IMG/VR virus record: IMGVR_UViG_3300006922_000259
Coordinates: 1 to 20,067 of that record
DNA: 20,067 nt
Source: a virus
Strand: one strand, 5' to 3'
The notes below the pieces were generated by a model. The model was given only the letters and a program-made list of their open reading frames with translations. It ran no database searches and was not told where the DNA came from. Made by a program: the position numbers and the translations under genes. This document shows, one piece after another, positions 755 to 20,067 of this stretch (position 1 is its first letter; each line of letters opens with the position of its first letter).

Positions 755-1740
755 ACTTTTTTCCAATCTGTAAGTTTAAGTTTTGCTTGTAACCCTTGAT
801 AGGTGTTGCCTTTTATTATAGCACTGGGGTCAAGTCCTTTCAGTACCATATCATTGATATCTTTTTGTTTAATTGTATTTGGCCATATTACTACTGGGTC
901 TCCCTGATCAACAGTTCTCTGCATTCTCTCAACAATCTGTCGGTTCCTTGGTTCGTTGTCGAAAACCCAGACCCTAGATCGATAAGGTAGAGAGCGGTGG
1001 TCAACATCGCTACCACACATAGCAACAGAGTTGGTAATGAAAGTGGAGTCGAATGGTCCTTCCGTGACATAAACTGTTTCCTCAGGATTAATATTATTTT
1101 GACCGAATAGTTTTAAACGATCTTCAAACATCACGGTGATGTATCGTAACGTGCTAGTTGGTGCCAGAGATCTACCCTGGATACCAAACCAAGTACCGTC
1201 CTCGCCAATGAGAGGGATAATAATTCTAGGTCTATCGTTTTGCAAGGATTCAAACGTTTGTTTCTGGGTGTTAACCCATCGTTTGAACTTATCTGCATAG
1301 TAAAAACATCCTATCTTCTCCTCAGGAATCAAACGATCTAGTAGATACTTCTTTGCGAGATGTTCATTATTTAGGTCTTTGATATTTACCAAACCTGATG
1401 TAGGTTTCTTAGCGAAACGTGGTTTACTAGAAGGCACGACAACCTTAGCAACAGTTGTTGCTTTGCCAGTGGCATTGTTTCTATACTTCTCTAACTGGTA
1501 CTCCGAGTACGTGTTAGGATCTTGATCTTTTAGGAAGTTGGCAAGCGTCCTACCCATGCCACAGTTGTGACACTTGAAGACCATGCGTTGCTTCATGACA
1601 AAAAAGTATCCTCTCGCTTTGTTCTTATGCTTAGAGGAGTCCCCACAGTAGGGGCATCTAAAATTATATAGCCCGTCCTTGACCTTCTTGAACTTCTCCA
1701 ACCGCCAACTCATTCTGTTGACGTAAATCTCGTCCAGCAT
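751..1740 (-). CDS. 61: DNA primase, T4 gp61-like
   Basis: This is the primase that makes RNA primers for lagging-strand synthesis together with the gp41 helicase. At 329 aa it is close to T4 gp61 (about 340). An N-terminal zinc ribbon is visible, with Cys29/Cys32 (CPYC) and Cys57/Cys60 (CHNC). A TOPRIM core follows, with the acidic motifs YVTEGPFDS (Glu227, Asp231), VWVFDNEPRN (Asp261, Glu263) and KQKDINDM (291-298). The ATG at 1740 lies 77 bp inside the preceding 154-aa gene. Met10 (1713) is an alternative start that would still keep the zinc ribbon. The stop overlaps the nrdA start by 4 bp. Finding primase directly ahead of nrdA, in the same transcription unit, fits a replication/dNTP supply module. 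Confidence 0.93.
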   Translation of the reverse strand: MLDEIYVNRMSWRLEKFKKVKDGLYNFRCPYCGDSSKHKNKARGYFFVMKQRMVFKCHNCGMGRTLANFLKDQDPNTYSEYQLEKYRNNATGKATTVAKVVVPSSKPRFAKKPTSGLVNIKDLNNEHLAKKYLLDRLIPEEKIGCFYYADKFKRWVNTQKQTFESLQNDRPRIIIPLIGEDGTWFGIQGRSLAPTSTLRYITVMFEDRLKLFGQNNINPEETVYVTEGPFDSTFITNSVAMCGSDVDHRSLPYRSRVWVFDNEPRNRQIVERMQRTVDQGDPVVIWPNTIKQKDINDMVLKGLDPSAIIKGNTYQGLQAKLKLTDWKKV

Positions 1741-2128
1741 CAGTCATGCCCAGTACCGTGGTACCTACCATAGCAGATGAATCACTAGGTGTCAATGATC
1801 TGAGCAGTGCTTGACCTGGCACACTGACAAGGAATGAGATGACAGCAAGTCCACCAAAGATGGACCACATCTTTTTCTCCATCATCCTGAGTCTCTCATC
1901 TACAAGACGAATGTCTCTCTCACAACCTTTCTTGATTGTGTCACACTCTTTGGTGAGATCTGAATGAAGTCTATCGATTTTCTCAAATAGAATTCCATCA
2001 ACTTCACCCTGTGTAGATAGTTTTTCGTTATGTACTGCAAGCAACTGCCCCATCTTGACGCTGTTGTCTTGCAATGAATCAACTACCTTTTCTAGTCTTT
2101 CTAGAATTGCTGAGTTAATGTCCGCCAT
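1664..2128 (-). CDS. Small coiled-coil membrane protein, function unknown
   Basis: This 154-aa protein is not assigned to a named family. Residues 1-85 are strongly helical and charged with heptad-like spacing, suggesting a coiled coil. One hydrophobic segment follows at about 88-104 (MWSIFGGLAVISFLVSV), then a small polar tail rich in Gly, Gln and Glu. The layout (coiled coil, then one C-terminal membrane segment) resembles XhlA/haemolysin-type phage proteins, which assist membrane lysis or anchoring; that is only a similarity of architecture. Its last 77 bp overlap the primase start in another frame, so the polar tail may be poorly constrained. The stop of the 123-aa gene lies 5 bp downstream of... 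more exactly, that upstream gene ends at 2134, 5 bp before this ATG. An AGGAA-like sequence sits about 10 nt before the start. Confidence 0.7.
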   Translation of the reverse strand: MADINSAILERLEKVVDSLQDNSVKMGQLLAVHNEKLSTQGEVDGILFEKIDRLHSDLTKECDTIKKGCERDIRLVDERLRMMEKKMWSIFGGLAVISFLVSVPGQALLRSLTPSDSSAMVGTTVLGMTDAGRDLRQQNELAVGEVQEGQGRAI

Positions 2129-3751: not shown

Positions 3752-3783
3752 AAAAGAAAGAGACCGACCCAAGGGATCAGTCT
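3751..3783 (-). terminator. Rho-independent terminator
   Basis: On the minus strand a 10-bp stem (AGACTGATCC with GGGTCGGTCT, two G-T pairs) and a 3-nt loop (CTT) are followed by CTTTCTTTTT. The stop codon of the 67-aa gene (3777-3779) is inside the stem. It ends the 510/127/76/67-aa transcription unit. Confidence 0.85.
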
Positions 3784-3980
3784 TCTTCGCGAGCAGCGAT
3801 TGCTTTGGTTACAACTTCGAGAAGTTGATCGTCCATGTCAGTCTTGGTTAACTTAACTGCCTTAGCAAGAATAACAAGACAGATCTCAACAAGTTTCTCA
3901 CCCAGTTCTTCATTGTCAGGCACCTTAGCAACAGCGTCAGAGATAATTTTCTTCGCTAGTGGGAGTAAAAATCCAAGCAT
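3777..3980 (-). CDS. Small amphipathic helical protein, unknown
   Basis: This 67-aa protein is not recognised. It begins MLGFLLPLAKKIISDAVAKV, an amphipathic or weakly hydrophobic helix. A second helix follows at about 25-45 (EELGEKLVEICLVILAKAVK), then an acidic C-terminal helix. It could be a peripheral membrane protein or a small helical bundle. It is the last gene of the block starting at the late promoter 6175-6182, and its stop codon is built into the terminator hairpin. The intergenic gap in front of it holds a 14-bp perfect palindrome. No clear Shine-Dalgarno sequence precedes the ATG at 3980. Confidence 0.7.
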   Translation of the reverse strand: MLGFLLPLAKKIISDAVAKVPDNEELGEKLVEICLVILAKAVKLTKTDMDDQLLEVVTKAIAAREED

Positions 3981-8413: not shown

Positions 8414-9750
8414 GGTTGTACTCCGACTTTATCGCGGTAAGGGTTGCCAATAGATGATTTCTCTCTGAGGTGATACTGGTCTGTGGGTTTGAGGTTGTTC
8501 TTCAAGTGGTTTTCCATGTAGAAGACTGGCATTCCTTTGTTCGTAGCGAACTTGTAGTAGGTGACCTCCTTCATAACAAAGTGCTCAATGACCTCACGAT
8601 ACACCAGGTCACCATCCTTGCTGATCTTTCGTAACATCATTTGACAGATGAGAGAGGCGATGCCAACTTTGCCACTACTGTGCTTGGGTGCTTCCCAGTA
8701 GTCCTTAGCATCATTATAATACATCTCTGCCAGTTTCAACCAGGAGGCTTGTGCCGCTTTGACATCTGATTCCTTAGGGTCACCACCCTTCACCATAGCA
8801 TCAATGTTTTTGACCACCTCTGTGGGTAATTTTGTCTTTAATTTAAGGTCCTTAGCAATCAATTCCAGTGCAAGGAAAGAACCATCCTTCACTTTGTTCT
8901 CAGCAAGAACTTGTAAGATCTTAAACTCAATAGTCTTCTTATATTTCTCAACCCAATCATCTTTCTTACCATCAATCTGTTTCTTATTGATAAGAGAAAT
9001 AATATCCTGAGGTTTGACTACGTTAGTTGTCTTACTGATCTTCTTAACGGAGAAGGGATATGATGTATTTTCCTCATCAAATATAACAAAGTCAATCAGT
9101 GGTTCATTACCCGCAGCAGGTAGGAATACCTGTGCATTATTCTTATTTAACCTACCATACCCTAGTTTATCTAAGTCAGCAGCACCACGTTCCAATACAC
9201 ATAGTGGAGCAGTAATCTCAGAGAAATCTTTCTCCACGTTATTCATAATATCAATGTATTCTGATGCTGCTAGGTCAGCATATGCTTTAAGTAGTTCCTT
9301 CTTCTCAGTAGCACCATGCTCCATACAAAAATCTGTTAGTTCAATTAGATACTCTTTGATTACCAGTTGAAGATCATCCCTTTTGTTAATAGCAGCGATG
9401 ACTTTCTTATAGTAAGTATCAAAAGACATCTTAGTATCCATAGGAATGTCAAACGCCTGAGGTTTTAACTCGGGCATCTTCTTCTTACCTGTGGCAGACC
9501 TAGGTTTACCTAACAAAGGAGTAGAGATCCACCCCGACTTGTCATTCTGATACAAGACTTCTATTCTGGCCTGGTAGTTACCACCTTTGATGGGTTTAAC
9601 ATGAACACCATCACCCTTAGCGATAACTCCTACCTTTGTTTTACTCTTAGCACCATCGTATACAACGATCTCTTTCTTAGATACAATCTCAAATCCTTTT
9701 TGGTAATGACGTTTGTAGTCATCCCATGCTTCTTTAATCGATCTTGCCAT
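8410..9750 (-). CDS. Unknown protein with SH3-like N-terminus and possible PD-(D/E)xK-like core
   Basis: This 446-aa protein is not a named family to me. Residues about 28-82 look like a bacterial SH3-type barrel (KVGVIAKGDGVHV, YQARIEVLYQNDKSGWIST). A helical region follows. At 178-237 there is EITAPLCVLERG, then PLIDFVIFDE and YPFSVKK: Glu178, Asp220 and Ser234-Val-Lys236 are spaced like the core of PD-(D/E)xK-fold nucleases, with Ser in place of the usual acidic residue. The C-terminal half is helical, without clear motifs. It starts at ATG 9750, overlapping the lipoprotein gene by 17 bp, and is coupled by ATGA to the ligase-like gene. The nuclease idea is tentative; a DNA-binding structural protein is the main alternative. 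Confidence 0.6.
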   Translation of the reverse strand: MARSIKEAWDDYKRHYQKGFEIVSKKEIVVYDGAKSKTKVGVIAKGDGVHVKPIKGGNYQARIEVLYQNDKSGWISTPLLGKPRSATGKKKMPELKPQAFDIPMDTKMSFDTYYKKVIAAINKRDDLQLVIKEYLIELTDFCMEHGATEKKELLKAYADLAASEYIDIMNNVEKDFSEITAPLCVLERGAADLDKLGYGRLNKNNAQVFLPAAGNEPLIDFVIFDEENTSYPFSVKKISKTTNVVKPQDIISLINKKQIDGKKDDWVEKYKKTIEFKILQVLAENKVKDGSFLALELIAKDLKLKTKLPTEVVKNIDAMVKGGDPKESDVKAAQASWLKLAEMYYNDAKDYWEAPKHSSGKVGIASLICQMMLRKISKDGDLVYREVIEHFVMKEVTYYKFATNKGMPVFYMENHLKNNLKPTDQYHLREKSSIGNPYRDKVGVQP

Positions 9751-9958
9751 CTTCTAGGCACTGATTATCCAAACTATTTAGATAATCTTTTTCATTCTGA
9801 TATGGCGTTTCTTTCCCAGTCCACAGTTTATATCCCTGCACTAACTCTGGTAGCAACCACTGGTCCACTCGATAGCAGTGCTTCCAGTTGACAGGTTGAG
9901 CACAACCAACAACTACAACAATAAAGAATGCTCGCAAGTGGATCCAAAGTGATAGCAT
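9734..9958 (-). CDS. Small lipoprotein
   Basis: The 74-aa precursor has a hydrophobic N-terminus (LRAFFIVVVV) ending in VVGC, a lipobox with Cys19 as the lipid-modified residue, so it is probably anchored in a membrane facing the periplasm. The mature part is about 56 aa, polar, with two more cysteines. It has no proline-rich region and no coiled coil, so it is not a clear outer-membrane spanin. The ATG at 9958 is fused to the stop of the 40-aa membrane microprotein as TGATG, so the two are probably made together and may act as a pair. Roles in lysis or blocking of superinfection are possible, but unsupported by motif. Confidence 0.65.
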   Translation of the reverse strand: MLSLWIHLRAFFIVVVVGCAQPVNWKHCYRVDQWLLPELVQGYKLWTGKETPYQNEKDYLNSLDNQCLEDGKID

Positions 9959-17013: not shown

Positions 17014-17235
17014 TTAGTAGTCCATGTTTCCACCATAACTGACACAGATCTTTTTATTTTCTGCTGATGATCTACACCACTGTCTTACGTAAGCGTCTGC
17101 ATCCTTAGTCATTGTGAAGTGAGCATGGTTATGTAATGCTCCGATTGTAATCAAAATTCCAATCGTAATCAGATTATAGTGTGTCGCTGGATGGCACACT
17201 ATCACTTTCAGGTAGTGCAGAATTTTTGATTTCAT
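17014..17235 (-). CDS. Small membrane protein, unknown
   Basis: This 73-aa protein has an N-terminal basic segment (MKSKILHYLKVIV), then one membrane segment NLITIGILITIGALHN (about 21-36), and a polar C-terminus with two Cys (RQWCRSSAENKKICVSYGG) that could form a disulfide if exported. It overlaps the end of hsp20 by 62 bp. The only ATG that keeps the membrane segment is 17235, preceded closely by GAAGG. An inverted repeat (17176-17202) lies within the overlap. It ends just before the terminator at 16963-16991. No homology recognised. Confidence 0.6.
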   Translation of the reverse strand: MKSKILHYLKVIVCHPATHYNLITIGILITIGALHNHAHFTMTKDADAYVRQWCRSSAENKKICVSYGGNMDY

Positions 17236-18179: not shown

Positions 18180-18187
18180 CCTAAATA
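18180..18187 (+). promoter_or_regulatory. Possible late promoter (CCTAAATA) for the exported gene set
   Basis: The plus strand reads CCTAAATA, one base from NATAAATA, 24 nt before ATG 18212. The plus-strand genes need a promoter within the 100-bp divergent gap, and this is the best candidate. The match is imperfect. Confidence 0.4.
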
Positions 18188-18211: not shown

Positions 18212-18706
18212 ATGAAGAAATTTCTTCCTCTCGTTATGCTTCTGATGACCGCGAGCGTTGCTAACGCTGGTGGACTTGTATCAAAACATGCCGCAAGTGT
18301 TCAACTAACTGTGGACTCGGCAAGAACGCAGGCAACTAGAATCGGTTCATCGTTTAGTATTTCAGGATCAAATATTGATACCACGGACGGAACGACCGCC
18401 CATACAGTATCTGCTGGTACTATCACCTCTGGTGTATACAGTCCTGGCACTATCTCTGCAACACAGGACACAGCAGGTTCGGCCTTCTCGTTTAGTCAGT
18501 CATACACACAGGCTGATGCAGTTCCAACTGCTGCCCCTACTGTGGGTGACGTTCCTAACTTCTCAAACACTACTTCTTACACTGCTGGAACAGCAGGATC
18601 CCTAGCAGGTACTGTGACATCTGCTGGATTGATCACCGTGACGGCTGGTGGCGCAGGCACGACGGCAACAGGACAATACGTGAGTGAGATCACGGTAATT
18701 GACTGA
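18212..18706 (+). CDS. Exported protein with signal peptide, first of three
   Basis: This 164-aa precursor begins MKKFLPLVMLLMTASVANA, a clear Sec signal peptide with an ANA cleavage site before Gly20. The mature part is Thr/Ser/Gly/Ala-rich, predicted beta, with no cysteine. It contains SGVYSPGTISA and AGSAFSFSQSYTQADA, which match SPGT and PGAAFQFTETY in the next protein, so the two appear to be diverged paralogues. It is on the plus strand, opposite to nearly all the window, after a divergent promoter region. It may be a periplasmic, surface or virion-attached protein; there is no catalytic motif. The start is supported by the signal peptide and a weak GAG before the ATG. Confidence 0.78.
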   Translation: MKKFLPLVMLLMTASVANAGGLVSKHAASVQLTVDSARTQATRIGSSFSISGSNIDTTDGTTAHTVSAGTITSGVYSPGTISATQDTAGSAFSFSQSYTQADAVPTAAPTVGDVPNFSNTTSYTAGTAGSLAGTVTSAGLITVTAGGAGTTATGQYVSEITVID

Positions 18707-18714
18707 GGTTAGCA

Positions 18715-19152
18715 ATGAAGAATACGATTATCTCGTGTGCGATCGTTGCGGTGGGTGCAAGTGTCACACTTGTTCCTGCCCAGGCGGTCCCCGTGGTCCC
18801 AAACTTCACCCAGGGGTCAATGACGAGCCACACGGAGACAACACAGACGATAACTGAGTCTATAAATAGCATGGACTACAACACTGGGTATCAGTATTCT
18901 GCTACTGGTTCTGGTGTATCTGCATCTGGAAACCTCTCACCAGGAACAGGTGCTAGTAATGTAACTATTGACGGAGTGACTTCTTCATGGACAGGAGTGA
19001 ACAACAGACCGACGTTTACACAAACAACACCTGGCGCAGCGTTTCAGTTTACAGAAACTTATCAAGGCCCAGGTCTCTCGAATCAAACAATTATAAACAG
19101 AACAACAGAGGTTACAAGCATAACCGATACCACAAGTATCTTCTCGCAGTAA
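18715..19152 (+). CDS. Exported protein with signal peptide, second of three
   Basis: This 145-aa precursor begins MKNTIISCAIVAVGASVTLV and continues to an AQA cleavage site before Val25. The mature part is Thr/Ser-rich, with GNLSPGTGAS and TQTTPGAAFQFTETYQGPGL, shared with the first exported protein, and the end TEVTSITDTTSIF. GAGG (18705-18708) lies 6 nt before the ATG, partly within the stop of the previous gene, so the two are co-translated. A perfect TATAAATA lies inside the coding region at 18861. The last part overlaps the third gene's frame. Function unknown; possibly a partner or decoy for the paralogue. Confidence 0.76.
   Translation: MKNTIISCAIVAVGASVTLVPAQAVPVVPNFTQGSMTSHTETTQTITESINSMDYNTGYQYSATGSGVSASGNLSPGTGASNVTIDGVTSSWTGVNNRPTFTQTTPGAAFQFTETYQGPGLSNQTIINRTTEVTSITDTTSIFSQ
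18861..18868 (+). promoter_or_regulatory. Possible internal late promoter TATAAATA
   Basis: A perfect TATAAATA on the plus strand, inside the 145-aa gene and about 120 nt before the 18987 start of the third exported gene. It may transcribe that gene separately. Matches inside coding sequence also occur by chance, so this is moderate support only. Confidence 0.4.
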
Positions 19153-19868
19153 CACTTTTATTTGCTAATCCTTCTTATGCTGAAACTGTTGGTGGTGTGT
19201 CTGCTACTGCTTCTCCTGTGGCTAATAGTTCAGGCTCCGTTACAAACCAAGCCATACAAGTCCTTCAAGGACCTTACATTACAAACACATACGGAAGTGG
19301 TATACAATGTCAGGGTCCCACTCGCAACTTCACCCCCTATGTAACAGGATCTGCTTCGGCATCTAAACCATACGAACCATACTTCAATGATCCTGTGTAC
19401 GATATCAGTGATCTAAATGAAGATGGTTTGATTGATAATCCTGGTGATATATTGTTCCATAAAAGAACACGTACTGGACAGAAAGATAATTATAGTTTAG
19501 GTGTAGGGTTCTCTATGACATGGAGTACACCCATTGATAAGAAGTTGCAGGACCAATGTAAGGAAGCGGCAGCAGCAAGTATTGATTTGCTACAACAAAC
19601 TGCTGCCAATAAAAGATTGGACTTTGAGATTGCAAGATTAAAAAATTGTGGATCTCTTATGAAGGAAGGAATCATGTTTCACCCCAAGAGTCCTTATTAT
19701 AAAATATGTGCGGATGTCGTGGTGATGAATGTCAACCAGATCAAAGACCACAGACATACTATCCCTTCGGTTTCAGTGCCTCCCGAAGAGTCCGAATCGC
19801 AAGATTCCTCTGACGCTGCTCCAAACGACGTTCGTTTACAGACGGTACCTTACTCTCCTTCCCCCTGA
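18987..19868 (+). CDS. Third exported protein; start codon unresolved
   Basis: The frame is open from ATG 18987 (293 aa). The first 48 residues are polar and basic. Only then comes a typical signal peptide (KYLLAVTLLFANPSYA, residues 50-65, cleavage before Glu66). No ATG, GTG or TTG lies between 18987 and the signal peptide. AGAGG sits 7 nt before codon 45 (CAT), as if a start once stood there. The mature part (about 228 aa) has VSATASPVANSSGSVTNQAI, four Cys, DLNEDGLIDNPGD (EF-hand-like), a strand region FSMTWSTPID, and a helix ending FEIARLKNCGSLMKEGIMF. I have a sense of similar proteins in picocyanobacteria and their phages but no named function. The last 110 bp overlap a minus-strand gene tail to tail. 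Confidence 0.68.
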   Translation: MDRSEQQTDVYTNNTWRSVSVYRNLSRPRSLESNNYKQNNRGYKHNRYHKYLLAVTLLFANPSYAETVGGVSATASPVANSSGSVTNQAIQVLQGPYITNTYGSGIQCQGPTRNFTPYVTGSASASKPYEPYFNDPVYDISDLNEDGLIDNPGDILFHKRTRTGQKDNYSLGVGFSMTWSTPIDKKLQDQCKEAAAASIDLLQQTAANKRLDFEIARLKNCGSLMKEGIMFHPKSPYYKICADVVVMNVNQIKDHRHTIPSVSVPPEESESQDSSDAAPNDVRLQTVPYSPSP

Positions 19869-20067
19869 GTTTAGCAATCTTTTTAATAACTTTCTTAACC
19901 GTTGGTTTGACTACTTTCAATAGTAAGTCTGCCAGCGGTTTTGCTAATAGTGCTGATGTAGTAGCGATTACAGCAATGCCACCCACGGATGCTACTTGTC
20001 CACCACTAGGAAGACCAGCAATAATTTGTTGAGGTATACCTACTGCTTCTGTAATCTGAATGCATTC
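19759..20067 (-). CDS. C-terminal part of an unknown basic protein (runs off the right edge)
   Basis: The frame is open from the window edge to the TGA at 19759 (102 codons seen). A GTG at 19986 is in frame, but codons continue upstream without a stop, so the true start is beyond the window. Visible are QITEAVGIPQQIIAGLPSGG, a hydrophobic stretch VGGIAVIATTSALLAKPLAD (possible membrane segment), and a very basic part (KVVKPTVKKVIKKIAKLRGK) ending with an Arg/Gln-rich helix. Membrane segment plus basic tail suggests an inner-membrane or virion protein. It overlaps the end of the plus-strand exported gene by 110 bp. Family unknown. Confidence 0.6.
   Translation of the reverse strand, partial: ECIQITEAVGIPQQIIAGLPSGGQVASVGGIAVIATTSALLAKPLADLLLKVVKPTVKKVIKKIAKLRGKESKVPSVNERRLEQRQRNLAIRTLREALKPKG

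Follow-up and report, generated by a model that had tools for sequence, protein, structure and literature searches.

Synechococcus and Prochlorococcus are the most numerous photosynthetic cells in the ocean, and viruses are a major cause of their death, yet we know of no gene by which these viruses carry out the outer-membrane step of lysis. The window examined here, by which we mean the whole stretch of DNA that was analysed, is a virus record of 20,067 bases from a T4-like cyanophage, the closest records of which belong to the Kyanoviridae. The main genes in the window, including those for Hsp20 and DNA polymerase, are all located on the minus strand, with the exception of 3 plus-strand genes at its end, here called A, B, and C, which a preliminary description had taken to encode exported proteins. 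The existence of this set was confirmed: 3 neighboring genes for exported proteins are present in this marine cyanobacterial virus. The 3 families are already known as families; what would be new is the system, a candidate variant of phage outer-membrane lysis. The features of the locus are as follows.

18181..18187, plus strand: late-promoter-like CTAAATA in the sequence, 31 nt before gene A
18212..18706, plus strand: gene A, 164 aa, phrog_564, predicted to be exported, beta-rich; signal peptide at 18212-18268
18715..19152, plus strand: gene B, 145 aa, phrog_650/Pfam DUF6322, predicted to be exported, paralogue of A; signal peptide at 18715-18786
18973..18976, plus strand: Shine-Dalgarno-like GGAG for gene C in the sequence, within B, ten bases before the ATG
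18987..19868, plus strand: gene C, 293 aa, phrog_848, predicted to be exported, four invariant Cys; begins within B
Cut at about 19181, plus strand: signal peptide of gene C by the Sec/SPI rule, with a long basic n-region
19759..20067, minus strand: gene D, 3' part only, continuing beyond the window end; phrog_570 (E 6.2e-44)

Export was predicted with a crude Sec/SPI rule applied to the 27 genes in the window, with a longer n-region permitted for C. All 3 genes passed, which bears out the Sec signal peptides previously ascribed to them, and the only other gene to pass was a lipoprotein-like gene at 9734-9958; when the longer n-region was permitted for every gene, one more gene (17014-17235) passed. 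The signal peptide of A is MKKFLPLVMLLMTASVANA followed by GG, with the cut after residue 19, and that of B is MKNTIISCAIVAVGASVTLVPAQA followed by VP (cut after residue 24), while that of C consists of a long basic lead and KYLLAVTLLFANPSYA followed by ET (cut after residue 65). The rule was also passed by 71 of 82 homologues of A, 67 of 97 homologues of B and 72 of 105 homologues of C. Neither a lipobox fitting a signal-peptide cleavage site nor a transmembrane (TM) segment besides the signal peptide was identified in A, B, or C. The D product is Pro-rich, with a hydrophobic segment at the C-terminus and a basic tail, and the 3' end of its gene overlaps the 3' end of C in antisense.

A comparison of the A and B profiles gave an hhalign probability of 94% (E 1.1e-7) over a region with a common AxFxF motif, which confirmed A and B, as judged from their profiles, as diverged paralogues. 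Their kinship had been proposed from shared motifs, of which AxFxF lies within the matching region, whereas SPGT is a weak portion of the match. C is unrelated to A and B and is thus not a third paralogue; its four Cys are invariant across 84 sequences.

The profile matches of the 3 proteins were near full-length, with E-values of 3e-81 to phrog_564 for A, 4e-70 to phrog_650 for B, and 1e-145 to phrog_848 for C. Furthermore, B matched DUF6322 (PF19847) with an E-value of 5.2e-42 and a score of 142.9 bits against a curated cut-off of 30.6, whereas A scored only 12.6 bits and therefore falls outside DUF6322. The databases assign no function to PHROG 564, 650, 848/1755, 570, 721/2714/21865 (DUF6450), and 568 or to DUF6322, although phrog_568 bears the label 'plasmid stability', for no evident reason, and some records name A 'OMP1'. 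A literature search on these families, including DUF6322 and DUF6450, found no paper. Protein searches identified homologues of C in 462, of A in 411, and of B in 412 phage records, all of which were named as Synechococcus, Prochlorococcus, other cyanophage, marine, or uncultured phages; DUF6450 was found in 422 phage records. With more than 400 phage records for each of the A, B, and C families, the pattern is far beyond chance. In P-SSM2, the homologues of A, B, and C correspond to T4-GC 235-237. Six loci (L092-L096 and L098) came from metagenome-assembled genomes or assemblies labelled Euryarchaeota, Lewinella, Formosa, Bacteroidetes, Nonlabens, and Gammaproteobacteria. We considered these as non-cyanobacterial occurrences, but their neighborhoods are those of ordinary cyanophages, and they were taken as mis-binned phage contigs and probable contamination.

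The genes had been described as 3 consecutive genes, and the coordinates hold, but this wording hides a long overlap between B and C. The start codon of C is the ATG at 18987, inside B and in another frame, such that the 2 genes share 166 nt (18987-19152). In 82 of the 99 loci with both genes, the ATG of C was located exactly 163 nt upstream of the stop codon of B; it lay upstream of this stop codon in 95 of the 99 loci, and 83 of these 95 had a Shine-Dalgarno-like site. When the codons of B were shuffled synonymously with the protein kept, the C frame remained open in only about 10% of the trials. The conserved start position, together with the rarity of an open C frame after shuffling, indicates that this coding arrangement is a conserved one, and a later C start in public records is probably wrong. 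In 3 freshwater host cassettes, however, B and C do not overlap. It was also noted that a frameshift divides C into 2 parts in ACG-2014g, in one ACG-2014d isolate and in MED4-184 (L002 4986-5893, L003 3974-4980, and L008 6249-6961), which represents either a sequencing error or a broken gene.

The sequence upstream of A suggests when the genes are expressed. An exact CTAAATA was present at positions -40 to -20 of A in 37 of 83 phage loci, compared with a background of 0.2%, and either CTA[ACT]ATA or NATAAATA occurred within 50 nt before A in 71 of the 73 full-length T4-like loci (background 1.5%). The latter sequence, NATAAATA, has been published as the late promoter of the cyanophage S-PM2 (PMC2984593). 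With a late promoter before A, the A-B-C genes are late genes by promoter and, going by this motif, would be switched on late in infection. A transcriptome study of S-PM2 contained no timing that could be used for this set. Superinfection exclusion and adhesion, which the preliminary description had put forward as roles, found no specific support; the late promoter and the linkage described below, to a holin-like protein with two TM segments and, in freshwater relatives, to endolysins, point instead to the end of the infection. T4 Imm is expressed early, unlike the late-promoter gene A.

Besides the overlap, the preliminary description had overlooked that the set has partner genes and is widely distributed. 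The exported proteins A, B, and C belong to a conserved module that also includes D, phrog_568 (one TM segment), and DUF6450 (two TM segments). Among loci with more than 3.5 kb of sequence after C, D was present in 58 of 58, DUF6450 in 53 of 58 and phrog_568 in 51 of 58, and among those with room before C, B was present in 77 of 77 and A in 74 of 77. The module was identified in T4-like phages, in T7-like phages (P-SSP7, S-RIP1, P-SCSP2, and others), and in siphoviruses (MED4-117, MED4-184, and S-SKS1). The usual order in T4-like phages is A>B>C> <D <phrog_605 <phrog_568 <DUF6450 <regA, while it is DUF6450>A>B>C> <D <phrog_568 in the siphoviruses MED4-117 and MED4-184, and D>DUF6450>B>C> in the T7-like P-SSP7 and S-RIP1. 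That the same genes keep company in differing orders in 3 phage types argues for a common function. The DUF6450 protein is short, with two TM segments and a basic C-terminus; its hydropathy segments cover residues 27-56 and 62-83 in P-SSP7, and 8-31 and 45-61 in MED4-117, a topology that makes it a candidate holin. The phrog_568 protein encoded beside D, which was compared with the plan of an i-spanin (a type II protein with a TM segment at the N-terminus and a periplasmic domain, encoded close to the o-spanin), has one N-terminal TM segment and about 50 more residues. Separately, a small amphipathic protein of phrog_402/phrog_2738 was noted at 3777-3980 on the minus strand of the window and at L004 8554-8709; in P-SSP7, the gene for its relative and the end of C overlap, and P-SCSP2 has a similar open reading frame close to the module.

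In P-SSP7 and S-RIP1, the module is located between the tail fibre and terminase genes, and it is between these genes that T7 carries its holin and spanin genes for lysis. The proximity to tail genes in T7-like phages and the late promoter before A would also suit virion components, either exported and then joining the released particles, or packaged uncleaved as a tail decoration or adhesin. We consider this very improbable, given that A, B, and C carry signal peptides and that the T4-like phages keep the module near replication genes. The virion reading is further weakened by the record of S-SM1, a phage whose virion proteome was measured (PMC3037559): structural proteins are named elsewhere in this record, but the homologues of A, B, and C (SSM1_167-169) are annotated as 'hypothetical'. 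Together with the export signals, this annotation upholds the earlier view of the 3 products as non-classical proteins for a myovirus, with the infected cell's envelope as their most likely site of action.

The reading that we favor, and to which we give not quite an even chance, is that A-B-C form the exported part of a late lysis module, a lipobox-free set that breaches the outer membrane. A T4-type late promoter would drive the 3 genes late in infection, C being produced by internal initiation inside B, and the products would be carried by the Sec system into the periplasm, where they may become inserted in or beneath the outer membrane. At the inner membrane, D, phrog_568, and DUF6450 would act separately as membrane partners, and the wall would be cut by an endolysin, after which A-B-C would disrupt the outer membrane in place of the lipoprotein-based spanins that are seemingly absent from these phages. 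What the analysis shows is the export signals, the late promoter, the conserved linkage, the overlap, and the restriction to one host group; the role in lysis, the outer-membrane target, and the interaction of the parts are what we infer here. In a survey by Kongari et al. (2018), about 20 picocyanobacterial phages were found to be without a spanin, including P-SSP7, P-HM1, P-SSM2, S-SM1, S-SM2, S-SSM7, Syn1, and Syn19, for which the authors suggested a fragile host membrane or a substitution by other kinds of membrane protein (PMC6139136). All eight of these phages contain B or C, and it is because marine cyanophages were reported to be spanin-less that we propose A-B-C as the breaching set.

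The freshwater T4-like phages DSL-LC02 and DSL-LC03 contain A-B-C, D, and DUF6450, and the DUF6450 gene is followed by genes for a predicted outer-membrane barrel, a Phage_lysozyme (PF00959) and a C39 peptidase. A search of the whole genomes identified this module-linked lysozyme as the sole PF00959 match in each of the 2 phages, which are closely related and therefore count as one observation. In the marine phages tested, no endolysin adjoined the module, and most of them had no PF00959 or C39 match, whether near the module or anywhere else. The C39/lysozyme endolysin of S-PM2 and S-CREM1 is encoded near nrdB and away from the module, which counts against the lysis reading. We observed that lysozyme and C39 peptidase are fused in S-CREM1 (L181 6910-8091) and encoded by 2 separate genes in DSL-LC02 and DSL-LC03, and that the 2 genes share an N-terminal stretch in DSL-LC02. 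The window also contains a second holin candidate, a DUF7201 gene (1664-2128, minus strand) beside gp61, with a coiled coil and one hydrophobic segment in its product, a relative of which is annotated as holin-like in S-CREM1. Furthermore, the lipoprotein-like gene at 9734-9958 on the minus strand encodes 74 aa with FFIVVVVGC directly followed by AQPVNW, has relatives in 365 Synechococcus phage and cyanophage records, and retains the lipobox-like motif in 49 of the 65 relatives checked; judged by this motif, it is a possible o-spanin of the conventional type in phages that have been counted as spanin-less. Both genes weigh against the lysis reading, as do the lack of a lipobox at a cleavage site and of a further TM segment in A, B, and C, and the absence of the podoviruses Syn5 and P60 from the best 60 C matches.

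A comparison with picocyanobacterial genomes had been suggested earlier, and relatives do exist. A scan of bacterial genomes identified A-B-C on contigs of 3 freshwater Synechococcaceae (L099-L101), 2 of which (L099 and L100) also contained D. Each contig stops just after the cassette, but genes resembling ndhE and that for NAD kinase, recognised by eye upstream in L101, make the contigs look chromosomal. In a tree of C, the host cassettes were placed inside the phage clade, where they joined DSL-LC03, albeit with long branches and moderate support; phage origin is therefore likelier than host origin. A simple host origin of the phage cassette was considered, but the only host A-B-C cassettes found look phage-derived, a result that the long branches make unsure. 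More distant C-like proteins were detected in other cyanobacteria, with about 20% identity and profile E-values of 1e-9 to 1e-17. A host-scan profile built from these proteins and the freshwater cassettes matched 29 of 349 genomes of the picocyanobacterial order, a count that includes phage-type cassettes, and 11 of 386 genomes of the phylum. The inspected C-like loci were mostly situated among secreted low-complexity proteins, with L126 beside giant surface proteins, and ten neighbors of the C-like genes in the L126, L127, and L130 clusters had no Pfam match. At the level of sequence profiles, this shows C to be a diverged relative of cyanobacterial secreted proteins, and as such a member of a wider envelope-protein family.

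The location of the host C-like proteins in surface-protein clusters rather than lysis loci speaks against the lysis reading and leaves 2 rivals alive. The first is envelope remodelling late in infection, in which A-B-C would coat or change the outer membrane, for example so that neither progeny nor other phages adsorb to a dying cell or to its debris, by superinfection exclusion or receptor masking. The export signals on all 3 proteins, the restriction of the carriers to phages of one host group, and the company of the C-like proteins with other secreted proteins in surface clusters would all agree with such remodelling, as would the phage-type A-B-C on the chromosomal-looking freshwater contigs, where an exclusion gene would be useful. 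We nevertheless regard it as rather unlikely, in view of the late promoter before A and because exclusion alone would not predict tight linkage to a holin-like gene with two TM segments, or to endolysins as in the freshwater phages.

The second rival is that the set forms a secreted matrix or fibre akin to the surface-fibre clusters of cyanobacteria, with A and B as Thr/Ser-rich beta subunits and C as an assembly or anchoring factor, by which the phage would clump or sink cells or debris, or hold its progeny. The host C-like genes situated among several secreted low-complexity proteins (L126, L127, and L130) are in line with a fibre, and the paralogy of A and B is as in subunit pairs. The AlphaFold2 model of B (pLDDT 79.6, pTM 0.42) is all-beta and predicts long strands of about 24 residues at both ends, which would also suit a fibre subunit. 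However, fold searches with B and C against solved structures gave no PDB match below E 0.001, the best match of B being weak (E 0.0057, rmsd 24 Å); the module is without a known fibre secretion pore, and the holin-like partner is left unexplained. On balance, we find a fibre unlikely.

The long hairpin of B also resembles the stems of beta-pores in geometry, which would suit a role of A and B as outer-membrane beta-pores that permeabilize the cell during phage replication, before lysis. In a comparison with VIA-align, the matches, to long-hairpin pore stems and phage tail channels, reached a Z of at most 3.5 and were treated as shape only; those to pore stems (Z 2.0-3.5, rmsd 5.5-12 Å) are noise by the tool's own yardstick. 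With only one of five B models being confident, strands that are polar on both faces, and a late promoter before A, we think such pores highly unlikely. The C model (pTM 0.34) predicts strands and then a helix at residues 120-161 of the mature protein. A TolC-type half protomer was suggested by the strand-P-helix pattern of C but not supported by this model, and was dropped. A search of BFVD gave five significant matches for B, seemingly from its own cyanophage family, while a sequence search of the PDB gave nothing for C and two chance matches for B. We drew no functional conclusion from the predicted structures.

Returning to lysis, A-B-C are a candidate for the outer-membrane step in cyanophages that is conserved, late, host-restricted, and exported, and that occurs in 3 phage types in rearranged orders. 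A wider proposal, which we put forward as a tentative possibility, is that 3 cyanophage morphotypes share one lipobox-free system for disrupting the outer membrane, consisting of A, B, C, D, phrog_568, and DUF6450, in which C has an ancestry shared with cyanobacterial secreted proteins, and that the module has moved from one phage type to another. If true, such a system would explain why abundant marine cyanophages looked spanin-less. Hypotheses of function are gained for at least 6 large unknown families, with genes in more than 400 sequenced phages.

The module can be compared with several known systems. Like the two-component spanins of lambda (Rz/Rz1) and T7 (18.5/18.7), it encodes envelope-directed products from overlapping reading frames, lies near the terminase gene in T7-like phages, and has an expected role in outer-membrane disruption. 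The 166-nt B/C overlap is an unspecific feature, however, and no sign of homology to Rz/Rz1, and no sequence similarity of two-component spanins to A, B, and C is known. Those spanins consist of a TM protein and a lipoprotein, whereas 3 exported proteins are found here, and the N-terminal lipobox that marks an o-spanin is absent from A, B, and C.

DUF6450 resembles the class II holins of the S type in the lambdoid phage 21 in its small size, two TM segments and charged C-terminus, but it has no match to a holin sequence family and is not located beside an endolysin in the marine phages. The cyanobacterial secreted C-like proteins (L107-L125, L126, and L130) have a signal peptide, an N/Q-rich start, a Cys pattern and a strand-P-helix motif in common with C, from which they differ by an identity of about 20%, by other neighbors, by a patchy distribution across genomes, and by having no recognisable A, B, or D partners. 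Finally, DSL-LC02 and DSL-LC03 differ from the marine phages in that their module has genes for an outer-membrane barrel, a lysozyme, and a C39 peptidase nearby.
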